DNA from: Draconibacterium orientale
GTDB taxonomy: Bacteria; Bacteroidota; Bacteroidia; Bacteroidales; JAIFNL01
Assembly: GCA_022729915.1 (NCBI GenBank)
Contig: DZBP01000010.1
Coordinates: 1-39,958, forward strand
Direction of reading: 5' to 3'
Length of the DNA: 39,958 nucleotides
A program made the translations under genes and the position numbers. How positions within the stretch are numbered: position 1 is the first letter of the stretch; every line of letters begins with the position of its first letter. The notes below the pieces were generated by a model, which did no database searches, was not told the origin of the DNA, and saw only the letters and a list, made by a program, of their open reading frames with translations. Shown piece by piece: positions 3,450 through 22,356 of this stretch.

Positions 3450-4652
3450 CTAAATATAAGCTAATTCTTCCAAAGCTTCTTTAATTAGCATATAAGTATG
3501 CTCAATATCATTATCCAAACCTACCGAAAAACGAACCAATCCTGGCGAAAGCCCCATTTCCGACTGAGTTTCGGCAGGTACTTCCGATGAGGTACTCGAA
3601 CCCGAATTGCTAAAAAGTGTTTTGAAATAACCCAAGCTAACTGCGAGGTAACCAACCCCTTTGGCTTGCATCAATTCCATTAAACTATCGGCGCGCTCTT
3701 TGGTTTGCATGTTGATAGCTATAATTCCTCCGTAACTAAATTGCGAATTCATCATCGAATTAAGCAATTCGTGTCCAGGGTGTGATTTCAAACCCGGGTA
3801 CGAAACTTGTATGCCAAGCTCAGTAAAGCGATTGGCTAAATACATTGCGTTGTGTCCGTGTTGTTTCATTCTAATGTGCAGAGTATGAAGGTTTTTCAAG
3901 ATTCCAGATGAGCGCAAAGGGTCAAGTGCCGGACCTAATAACATAGCCGTTCCGGAATTTACATTTACCAAGTCATTAATAAATTTAGAATCAGCGCAAA
4001 TAGCTCCAGCTACTAAATCATTTTTCCCATTAATAAACTTGGTCATACTATACACAACTATATGAGCACCAAGCTTATGAGGAGCAAGAATCATGGGTGA
4101 AAAAGTATTATCAACCACTAATTTAATTCCATGTTCATTTGCAATTTTCGCCATTTCAGGAATATCCGATATTTGCAACAATGGATTTGAAATTGATTCG
4201 GTATAAATAAGTTTTGTATTTGGTTTAATAGCTTTTCTAATTTGCTCTAAATTAGTAGGATCAACAAAAGTAACTTCAATATTAAATTTAGGCAAATAAT
4301 TTTTTAAGAAAGCAAAAGTACCTCCGTAAGTAGTCATACTCGAAACAATGTGGTCTCCAGCGTTGCAAAGTTGCAGCATAGTGCAAGTAATTGCAGCCAT
4401 TCCTGAGGCTGTAACCCACGCACTTTCAGTTCCTTCCATAGTAGAAAGTGCATCTGCCAAATATTTATTTGATGGATTCCAATGGCGCGAATACAAAAAA
4501 CAACCTTCTGCAACACCTTCAAAGGTATCGACCATAGTTTTCGCACCTAAAAAAGTAAAGGTCGAAGAATCAGTTATTGAGGGATTTACATCGCCAAACT
4601 CGCCAAATTGTGCAAGATATTGCACTTGGGTTGCTGGATCAAAATTTTTCAT
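3450..4652 (-). CDS. Cys/Met-metabolism PLP-dependent lyase (methionine gamma-lyase/cystathionine lyase type)
   Basis: A 400-residue fold-type I PLP enzyme of the trans-sulfuration family, at the usual length. Visible features are ASGMAAI (PLP phosphate binding, ~82-88), DNTF with Asp181 (contacts the pyridine nitrogen) and SMTKF with Lys205 as the probable Schiff-base lysine. The C-terminal SLGYFKTLFSNSGSSTSSEVP resembles the substrate carboxylate-binding loop of gamma-lyases, with Ser-rich substitutions. The family performs beta/gamma elimination or replacement on methionine, cystathionine, homocysteine or O-acyl-homoserine. Sequence reading alone does not fix which, so no symbol is given. 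It is a single gene with its own promoter-like region and shares the terminator at 3371-3413. Confidence 0.88.
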   Translation of the reverse strand: MKNFDPATQVQYLAQFGEFGDVNPSITDSSTFTFLGAKTMVDTFEGVAEGCFLYSRHWNPSNKYLADALSTMEGTESAWVTASGMAAITCTMLQLCNAGDHIVSSMTTYGGTFAFLKNYLPKFNIEVTFVDPTNLEQIRKAIKPNTKLIYTESISNPLLQISDIPEMAKIANEHGIKLVVDNTFSPMILAPHKLGAHIVVYSMTKFINGKNDLVAGAICADSKFINDLVNVNSGTAMLLGPALDPLRSSGILKNLHTLHIRMKQHGHNAMYLANRFTELGIQVSYPGLKSHPGHELLNSMMNSQFSYGGIIAINMQTKERADSLMELMQAKGVGYLAVSLGYFKTLFSNSGSSTSSEVPAETQSEMGLSPGLVRFSVGLDNDIEHTYMLIKEALEELAYI

Positions 4653-4759
4653 ACGTTCTTGGTTTTATTTAATTTTTCTTGGGTTCAAAGTTTTTGTTAT
4701 GAGTGCTATAAATAATTTTTTTGAGAAATTACACATCTTCATGTACAAACTTTCGGGGG

Positions 4760-4767
4760 CAAATGTA
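4760..4767 (-). promoter_or_regulatory. Putative -7 element of the PLP-lyase gene
   Basis: Minus-strand TACATTTG matches the Bacteroidota -7 consensus TAnnTTTG exactly and lies about 108 bases before the start codon. The nearest TTTG upstream is only 15 bases away, shorter than the usual 19-21, so the call is weak. Confidence 0.35.
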
Positions 4768-4825
4768 TGAATTAATTTAATACAAAATACGAATTATGTT
4801 CAATAACATTTTTGCAAAAAAAGTG

Positions 4826-19557: not shown

Positions 19558-20895
19558 ATGAAAAAAATAGCAATCATTGGCGCAGGAATAACAGGCTTAG
19601 CTACAGCATATTACCTTCAGAAAAAAGGAATAAATGTAACCATTTTTGAAAGAGAAAACCATATTGGGGGCGTTATAAAAAGCCCCAACGAAAAAGGCTT
19701 TCTTTATGAAACCGGTCCCAACAGCGGCGTTTTATCTTCGCCCGAAATAGTGAACCTATTTGAGGAGTTGAAAGATTTATGCACACTCGACAAAGCCAAT
19801 CATTCTGCGGCACGCCGATTGATTTGGAAAGGAAATAAATGGCACGCTTTGCCTTCGAGTTTGTGGTCGGCTATTGCTACGCCATTGTTTTCGTGGTACG
19901 ATAAATTACGAATTTTAGCAGAGCCTTTCAGAGCCAAAGGAACAAACCCAAACGAAAACCTTGCAGAGTTGGTAAAACGACGAATGGGCAAAAGTTTTCT
20001 TAATTACGCAATCGACCCTTTTATTTTGGGCATTTATGCTGGCGACCCAGCCTATTTAGTGCCACGCTTTGCCTTGCCAAAACTCTACAATTTAGAGCAA
20101 ACCTATGGCAGTTTTATCAAAGGAAGCATACAAAAAGCCAAAATACCCAAAACAGAGGAAGAAAAAAAAGCAACACGTGAAATATTTTCGGTAAAAGGAG
20201 GTTTAGAACAGTTTCCTAAAGCATTGGTTACAAAAATTGGTGACGAAAATATTGTGTTGAATGCAACCAATTTAAGCGTAAGCAAAGCCGAAAACAAATA
20301 TATATTGAACAATAAGTTGTTCGACGAGATTATTAGTACCGTAACAGCCAACGAATTAGAAAATATTTTCAGTTTTCTTCCCAAAGGAGATTTTGAACAC
20401 ATTAAGAACCTACAATATGCCGAAGTAGCCGAAGTAACTCTAGGTTTTGAGAACTGGAACGGCATGAAACTTGATGCTTTTGGCGGTTTAGTGCCTTTTG
20501 GCGAAAACAAAAATATACTGGGCGTACTTTTCATGTCCACACTTTTCAAAAACAGATGTCCCGAAAAAGGAGCTTGGCTTACTATTTTTACTGGCGGCAC
20601 TCGCAAACCCGAACTGGCGAAACTTTCGGACGAAGAGTTAAAAAATAAAATAAAAAACGACCTCATCCAAATGCTTGAAATAAAAGAATTTAAGCCCACT
20701 ATTTTTCACTTAACTCGCTACAAAAGAGCCATTGCACAATATGGCATTGACAGCGAAAACCGTTTAGAAGCCATTCGCAAAATTGAAACAGAAAACAAAG
20801 GAATTCACCTTGCAGGAAGCATTAGAGATGGTGTAGGAATAGCCGATAGAGTGAAACAAGCCAAAGATTTGACAAATTCCATATCGGCTGATTAA
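19558..20895 (+). CDS. hemG: Protoporphyrinogen oxidase, FAD-dependent (HemY type)
   Basis: A 445-residue flavoenzyme. It has an N-terminal dinucleotide-binding fold (IAIIGAGITGLATAYYL, then FERENHIGG), a middle region with KGGLEQFPKAL, and a C-terminal HLAGSIRDGVGIADRVKQA that closes the FAD site. It oxidises protoporphyrinogen IX to protoporphyrin IX, directly after the HemN step. The sequence type is HemY although the gene is commonly named hemG in databases. No ferrochelatase gene follows; the next feature is a MITE-like element. Confidence 0.92.
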   Translation: MKKIAIIGAGITGLATAYYLQKKGINVTIFERENHIGGVIKSPNEKGFLYETGPNSGVLSSPEIVNLFEELKDLCTLDKANHSAARRLIWKGNKWHALPSSLWSAIATPLFSWYDKLRILAEPFRAKGTNPNENLAELVKRRMGKSFLNYAIDPFILGIYAGDPAYLVPRFALPKLYNLEQTYGSFIKGSIQKAKIPKTEEEKKATREIFSVKGGLEQFPKALVTKIGDENIVLNATNLSVSKAENKYILNNKLFDEIISTVTANELENIFSFLPKGDFEHIKNLQYAEVAEVTLGFENWNGMKLDAFGGLVPFGENKNILGVLFMSTLFKNRCPEKGAWLTIFTGGTRKPELAKLSDEELKNKIKNDLIQMLEIKEFKPTIFHLTRYKRAIAQYGIDSENRLEAIRKIETENKGIHLAGSIRDGVGIADRVKQAKDLTNSISAD

Positions 20896-21024
20896 ATGGT
20901 GTCAAATACGCACAAAGTATTTATTTACAATGTATTAATAGAAATTTTTAAATAAGGTACTTTCAAAAGAATTTGCTTTTTTTTTTAAAATTGATTTTAT
21001 TGCAAAGTAAAAATTTGAATTACT

Positions 21025-21180
21025 TAGTGTTTGAAAGAAAACTCAATTATTTTGAAAAAAAGCAAGGTTTAAATCCGTCAGACCGACTTGTTCGGTCTGA
21101 CGGATAAGTACTTACAAGCTCATCGGACAGACCGGACAAGCCGGTCGAACCGATTTTGGGTCGTTTTCTTTCAAACGCTA
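21025..21180. mobile_element. 156-bp MITE-like element with terminal inverted repeats
   Basis: TAGTGTTTGAAAGAAAAC (21025-21042) and its inverse (21163-21180) form 18-bp terminal inverted repeats with one mismatch, both bounded by TA. Inside are two GC-rich hairpins in this AT-rich DNA: a 14-bp stem with loop CTTGT at 21073-21105, and an imperfect one with loop ACAAG at 21122-21154. The second resembles the reverse complement of the first, giving a REP/BIME-like pair. The right end contains the TAG stop of the neighbouring gene. Confidence 0.65.
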
Positions 21181-22356
21181 AATAAACCGAACTAGTAAAC
21201 TTGCAATAATTACAGAAGAAATAGTTACATTAACAAAACCGGCAATTAGCATTTGCGGATAGATATTTTCTAATATAAATTCTTGTTCTTCTTTGGTTTT
21301 GCCCACACTTCTGGCTACTTCGTGTGGAATTATATAGGTTCCGGGAAATCCAAACAAGCACGAAATGCCAATACTTATTGATAAATACTTTGAAAATTTA
21401 AGCTTCTTTCCTACCCAAAACGACATAATCACCATGCCTAAAATACCAAGAAATAAAAAAAATAGGAGAGGAACTAGTGTTATTAAAATATGATGTAGGC
21501 TGATAGAGTTAAACGGTTGAAAAATAACTGATAAGACAGAAACCACGGTAAAACCATACGAATTAGCTTTGTTTAGGCTATCAAATTCTAAAAAACCAAT
21601 CTCTTTGAACAAAAAGCCTAAAAAAAGACAAACAACATATTCATTTATAATATTGTTTGTAAGTTTTGCTACAAAAAAACTTAAAAATGCTGTTGCTATT
21701 ATTTTACTCAAAACAATGGTAGGTGAATCGTATTTTGCAAAAAAAATTCTCAAGAATTTTAACTCAATCACAGAAATTTCTGGTTCATGTATCTTTTTAA
21801 ATTGTGATATTTTAAATCTTTTCATTCTATCTTTAGCTTCTTTTTTTAATAAAAATGATGCAATAGGATAGCCAACAAAACTTGAAAAAGATAAAAGTAA
21901 AGTGGTAAAAATTATAATTTGTTCTAAGTTTTGAGTTTCAGCTACCTTGTGAACCATTAGCGTAGCCACAATTCCGCCTCCAATAGGCGGTATTGCTGAA
22001 AAAACAATGTCAGAATCGTAAAAAAAACTCCCAAAACCAATTACAAAAAAAACAATTCCAATTTCGGCACTTATTGCTACTAAAATAACTTTCCATTGTT
22101 TTTGTAATGTACTTATATTGAGAGTAGTCCCTAAATGAACAATTAAAACCGATACAAGCAAACTTCCTAACTGATAAAGGTTTGAACTTTCAAAAATTGT
22201 AGGTGATAAACCATTAGCAAAGGCGATTATAAAAATAATACTGGAAACCAGCATTATAGACAATATTCCTTTGGTTTTTATCGATACAATTTCACTTAGC
22301 GCAAAAACACCAACTACAATGGTCAATGCTTTTAATCCAATATACACATCTTGCAT
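21178..22356 (-). CDS. Polytopic membrane protein resembling Na+/glutamate symporter (GltS/ESS-like)
   Basis: A 392-residue protein with about 10-11 hydrophobic helices. Features suggesting a symporter fold are LLVSVLIVHLGTTLN followed by a helix, AIPPIGGGIVATLMV (Gly-rich re-entrant-like loop), and FGFPGTYIIPHEVARSVGKT in the second half. The two similar halves suggest an inverted-repeat transporter. The family assignment is by pattern only and the substrate is unknown. Its stop codon TAG lies inside the inverted repeat of the MITE-like element, so insertion may have trimmed the C-terminus. A 105-bp dispersed repeat lies just upstream. Confidence 0.7.
   Translation of the reverse strand: MQDVYIGLKALTIVVGVFALSEIVSIKTKGILSIMLVSSIIFIIAFANGLSPTIFESSNLYQLGSLLVSVLIVHLGTTLNISTLQKQWKVILVAISAEIGIVFFVIGFGSFFYDSDIVFSAIPPIGGGIVATLMVHKVAETQNLEQIIIFTTLLLSFSSFVGYPIASFLLKKEAKDRMKRFKISQFKKIHEPEISVIELKFLRIFFAKYDSPTIVLSKIIATAFLSFFVAKLTNNIINEYVVCLFLGFLFKEIGFLEFDSLNKANSYGFTVVSVLSVIFQPFNSISLHHILITLVPLLFFLFLGILGMVIMSFWVGKKLKFSKYLSISIGISCLFGFPGTYIIPHEVARSVGKTKEEQEFILENIYPQMLIAGFVNVTISSVIIASLLVRFI

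Follow-up and report, generated by a model that had tools for sequence, protein, structure and literature searches.

The 39,958-nucleotide stretch of DNA analysed here, referred to as the window, contains a hemG-like gene (19558-20895, plus strand) and a GltS-like gene (21178-22356, minus strand) that converge on a 152-bp element with inverted ends and two GC-rich hairpins. The features recognised at this locus were:

21021-21026, no strand: left target flank TACTTA, of the TANNTA type, as read in the window sequence
21027-21178, no strand: whole non-autonomous element (MITE), 152 bp, with an interior of class B (see below), 96.7% identical to locus L305
21027-21042, plus strand: left terminal repeat GTGTTTGAAAGAAAAC, 16 bp, an exact end present in many copies
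21073-21105, no strand: GC-rich hairpin 1, perfect 14-bp stem, loop CTTGT
21122-21154, no strand: GC-rich hairpin 2, imperfect, loop ACAAG, inverted duplicate of hairpin 1
21163-21178, minus strand: right terminal repeat GCGTTTGAAAGAAAAC, 16 bp
21178-21180, minus strand: TAG stop codon of the GltS-like gene, its TA coming from the target and its G being the first base of the element
21179-21184, no strand: right target flank TAAATA, from which the left flank differs at the two N positions

The two ends, GTGTTTGAAAGAAAAC and GCGTTTGAAAGAAAAC, differ by one mismatch and form, together with their flanks, inverted arms of 23 nt (21020-21042 and 21163-21185) that are 91% identical. An earlier note on this DNA had rightly described terminal inverted repeats with TA outside them, but the 18-bp repeats and the limits 21025-21180 that it gave took in two flanking bases too many on each side, the repeats being 16 bp long and the element spanning 21027-21178. 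The two GC-rich hairpins with loops CTTGT and ACAAG that it had reported as mutually inverted were borne out by the comparison of their sequences: hairpin 1 agrees with the reverse-complemented hairpin 2 at 26 of 33 positions (79%) and with hairpin 2 read directly at 21 of 33, so the pair is inverted relative to each other. The element strand folds with -73.5 kcal/mol, against -33.5 ± 3.8 for dinucleotide shuffles (z -10.5). Within the 152 bp there was no ORF of at least 60 aa, nor any GTAG or CTAC, and Rfam gave only matches far below the gathering scores.

Exact matches to TANNTA plus the end numbered 43 in the window's own genome (G000) and 72 and 23 in two congeners (G001 and G002), and none was found in 38 other genomes of the order. 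From these three genomes 68 distinct complete copies were read, those of G000 being sampled as loci. Behind the same ends lay four unrelated foldback interiors: class A (GCCCC/GGGGC hairpins followed by T runs; G000), class B (CAGACCG hairpins; mostly G001, a few in G002, plus the window copy in G000), class C (CTCTGTG core; mostly G002) and class D (AT-rich, about 120 bp; G001), the assignment having been made by a script that binned a few C copies as D. All four classes fold much better than shuffles. The similarity of the window copy to L305, which is a different locus in G002 with TAAGTA on both sides, extends over 152 bp, and its identity to one class A copy of its own genome is only 61%. 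Because the same ends enclose four or more unrelated inverted-repeat interiors, the interior seems irrelevant to mobility. In kind, the element is an ordinary MITE, as the earlier note had proposed, with many copies, inverted ends, a target duplication, a gene-free interior and, elsewhere, full-length insertion sequences (IS) with matching ends.

Some copies had unusual structures. A head-to-tail pair of elements sharing one TANNTA was seen at L172/L284 (about 4597-4776) and at L099 (about 4443-4703), as if the target duplication of one element had served as the insertion site for the other. Truncated copies in G001 (L164, L159, L177:2428, L181 and L187) retain one of their ends, with the target repeat present to either side, the duplication being kept around an internal deletion in, for example, L159, L177:2428 and L187; at L164 nearly the entire element has been lost, and what remains is one end with a near-complete repeat. 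Internal deletion of foldback elements looks frequent.

TANNTA was present on both sides of 53 of the 68 copies, and in 41 of these 53 the two hexamers were identical direct repeats, whereas shuffled pairings of the flanks produced identical pairs with a mean of 7.4 and a maximum of 17. Among the copies with a non-palindromic left site (n=40), the site was repeated directly in 30 and inversely in 3. The target duplication is thus a true 6 bp (TANNTA) and not TA. The window copy's own flanks (TACTTA/TAAATA) are not identical, so this copy does not itself display the duplication; recombination between copies, or decay, is suggested as the best explanation for differing flanks, here and in like copies. 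Conservation in G001 covers the gene that precedes the GltS-like gene but not the stretch that follows it, a pattern that fits a rearrangement without proving one.

Complete ISNCY-type IS with ends of the form GTGYCTG...GAAAAC directly inside TANNTA were found in other Bacteroidales and in Ca. Brocadia, their transposases being recognised with NF033593, the NCBIfam profile for the ISNCY family (cut-off 325 bits). One end type in Brocadia recurs at contig ends, a sign of a longer repeat, and tracing it led to L414, a complete IS of 1859 bp with ends identical at 18 of 18 positions and a single 491-aa gene, whose transposase scores 433 bits. In Brocadia WS118 the IS coexists with a MITE whose end is exactly that of the window element. 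In the window's order, 5 of 247 genomes contained NF033593 matches above the cut-off. Two such Bacteroidales loci are complete IS, L431 (1849 bp, GTGTCTGAAAGAAAAC at both ends, flanked by TATATA/TATATA) and L432 (1844 bp, the same kind of ends, TATTTA/TATTTA); L434, also above the cut-off, has a variant end and is flanked by TAATTA/TAATTA, and L439, which falls under it, has matching ends and TANNTA flanks that differ. As a control for the Bacteroidales IS, a shuffled strand reached 20 of the 22 end positions in 1 of 1000 cases. The right end of L431 runs on into CTCATCATTTTT, as do class B copies of G001, and apart from this subterminal similarity the match between MITE and IS consists of the short ends and the target. 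On a Methylotuvimicrobium plasmid, a distant relative with one in-frame stop codon has TANNTA followed by GTGYCTGAACG at both sides.

Profile searches found no NF033593 gene in G000, G001 or G002, and no long element between paired ends, that is, no autonomous copy, was present in the stretches of the genus that were read. These assemblies are fragmented, and that of the window (G000) is 83% complete; the mobiliser is therefore missing from the assemblies or lost from these genomes. The genome search that the earlier note had recommended thus recovered the ends in many copies, so that the element is not single-copy, but a full-length transposase with matching ends came to light only outside the genus. 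Several candidates were discarded: these ends are lacking from NF033593-like genes of lower score in G043 and from a second such gene in Brocadia, and DDE_Tnp_1 (PF01609) is absent from several end-rich genomes, with 0 of 30 fetched loci flanked by the ends. At L372 an end-like match beside phage ORFs, with no IS, was taken as chance.

We consider it very likely that the window feature is a non-autonomous foldback MITE whose 16-bp ends are recognised by an ISNCY-type (NF033593) DDE transposase. Our conclusion is that elements of this kind are moved by ISNCY/NF033593 transposases, and we infer that this has happened in this genus and in trans. An ISNCY transposase supplied in trans would bind the GTGYYTG...GAAAAC ends, move or copy the element, insert it at an AT-rich TANNTA and duplicate those 6 bp. 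Where a TAA or TAG stop begins with the last TA of the target, the first base of the element, G, would make TAG, so that the gene would keep its end, as in the case of the GltS-like gene. We give only a small chance to the genus copies having been moved by another transposase whose ends and target happen to coincide with those of ISNCY elements: the failure to find an NF033593 gene in the three genus genomes speaks for it, but between 18 and 22 end and target positions match in independent ISNCY elements of two phyla, and multi-copy genes are commonly missing from assemblies as fragmented as these (250-310 contigs).

We also think it improbable that the element has been domesticated and retained for the transcription termination that its hairpins would provide between genes. 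The window copy does lie between convergent genes, all interior classes fold strongly and T runs come after the class A hairpins; however, the ORFs on either side converge for 9 of 49 copies and in 16 of 104 other neighbouring pairs, hence no enrichment, and a terminator scan of the window copy found none. No ORF contains any of the 49 classified copies. We see no sign of selection as terminators.

A Tc1/IS630-type transposase duplicating TA, which the earlier note had put forward on the basis of the TA directly outside both ends, is very improbable as the mobiliser, as the direct repeats span 6 bp, with both variable positions matching in 41 of 53 copies, and the IS bearing these ends encode ISNCY (NF033593) transposases. 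Equally improbable is a REP/BIME pair whose hairpins a RAYT (Y1) transposase would have spread, the ends being incidental, since this would account for two mutually inverted GC-rich hairpins, but what is common to all copies is the ends and not the hairpins, the interiors differing completely behind them, a target duplication is present in the family and the 152 bp lack CTAC as well as the GTAG in which REPs end (PMC3733652). The likeness to BIMEs that had been drawn from the hairpins is apt as a description of an inverted pair, which both systems have in common, but not as an origin: the window family has conserved outer ends and a 6-bp duplication and no GTAG tag, and its hairpins form the interior of a DDE-type transposable element rather than a RAYT-driven REP pair.

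Mobilisation by an ISNCY-type transposase, the reading we prefer, places the element beside the NF033593 IS, since L414, L431 and L432 share with its family the TANNTA target, the 6-bp duplication and the GTGYCTG...GAAAAC ends; these IS are about 1850 bp long and carry a transposase, whereas the window element is 152 bp long without a transposase gene, and no NF033593 gene was found in the genus. This group may correspond to the ISDol1 group of ISfinder. Correia/ERIC-type MITEs are likewise short and non-coding, with inverted ends, a foldback interior and TA ends, but they duplicate TA, in contrast to the 6-bp TANNTA and ISNCY-type ends of the window family. The IS1202/ISAjo2 family, also made up of ISNCY members and placed in the same ISfinder holding category, differs in having a TnsB-like transposase, ends starting 5'-TGT and duplications of 3-5 or >15 bp or none (PMC10132070). 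The Thiomargarita hupL MITE also has inverted ends of about 19 bp, many copies and a parental IS that is not known; it has 10-bp direct repeats and has been tentatively tied to a PD-(D/E)XK protein (PMC4853749), and we set it apart by description only. Coxiella QMITE1, with repeats of 2-3 nt, does not fit as a relative.

The earlier note had also suggested that the insertion supplied the stop codon of the GltS-like gene and redefined the C-terminus of its protein. The element does supply the G of the TAG, but the homologue in G001 (392 aa, 79% aa identity), which has no element there and a TGA stop, ends in the same ...RFI*, and the protein has therefore not been redefined. Joining the flanks of the window copy predicts TAA at the empty site, to be read with caution as these flanks are not identical repeats. 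An ORF ended at the TA of the target and the G of the element in 5 of 49 copies, versus 1.6% of the available TANNTA sites (binomial P about 0.001), an enrichment calculated from five cases with a simple ORF caller. For three of these five, joining the flanks yields a stop there (with identical flanks in one, L227), and in the other two the flanks mismatch and the empty site is unreadable. Insertion seems to preserve stops rather than to redefine proteins. In G001 a class D copy (L147:1358-1477) lies directly upstream of the GltS-like gene; two interior classes have therefore inserted independently in this neighbourhood.

When species genomes of bacteria and archaea were scanned, the exact ends turned up in Fulvivirga, Saprospiraceae, Ca. 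Brocadia, Ca. Scalindua, Desulfobacula and another Desulfobacteraceae MAG, in which a looser end pattern gave 272, 64, 24, 493, 82 and 75 matches, respectively, against 0-2 per strand for the reversed pattern. Many of the matches outside the genus are short elements with a TANNTA duplication. It seems to us an evenly balanced question whether the elements with TANNTA followed by GTGYYTGNNNGAAAAC belong to a single MITE superfamily of ISNCY transposons, not described before and spanning several phyla (Bacteroidota, Planctomycetota, Desulfobacterota), with interiors that are swapped freely. The end sequences were not found in the literature searched, the coverage of which was incomplete and did not include ISfinder; what appears to be new is that widespread hairpin elements with constant ends and changing interiors can be assigned to ISNCY transposases.

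Other observations were made in these distant genomes. The Scalindua (G046, L322) and Fulvivirga (G045, L312) genomes hold hundreds of ends with no full-length NF033593 gene in their assemblies, and may be orphan MITE populations. L292, L348 and L350 (Desulfobacterota, Planctomycetota) and class D of the genus have a similar central layout, CCTCA..GTA / TAC..CTCCGG, across phyla. Two viral contigs with Mu-like phage genes (L331 and L332) both break 127 bp inside the same end, TANNTA followed by GTGTCTGACAGAAAAC, a shared break that points to a multi-copy element of this type, probably in the phage or its host; as a source of IS they yielded none.

With these results, a poorly characterised IS category can be recognised by its end, its target and a duplication of 6 bp, and one testable mobiliser class is linked to many hairpin repeats of anammox bacteria, sulfate reducers and Bacteroidota that had lacked an explanation. 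The stop codons show a simple, harmless landing of a transposon, the target giving TA and the element G. If the proposed assignment is true, the mobiliser of the genus would be an NF033593 IS bounded by GTGTYTGAAAGAAAAC, and if the cross-phylum superfamily is real, a host lineage could gain new families of hairpin repeats behind constant ends.
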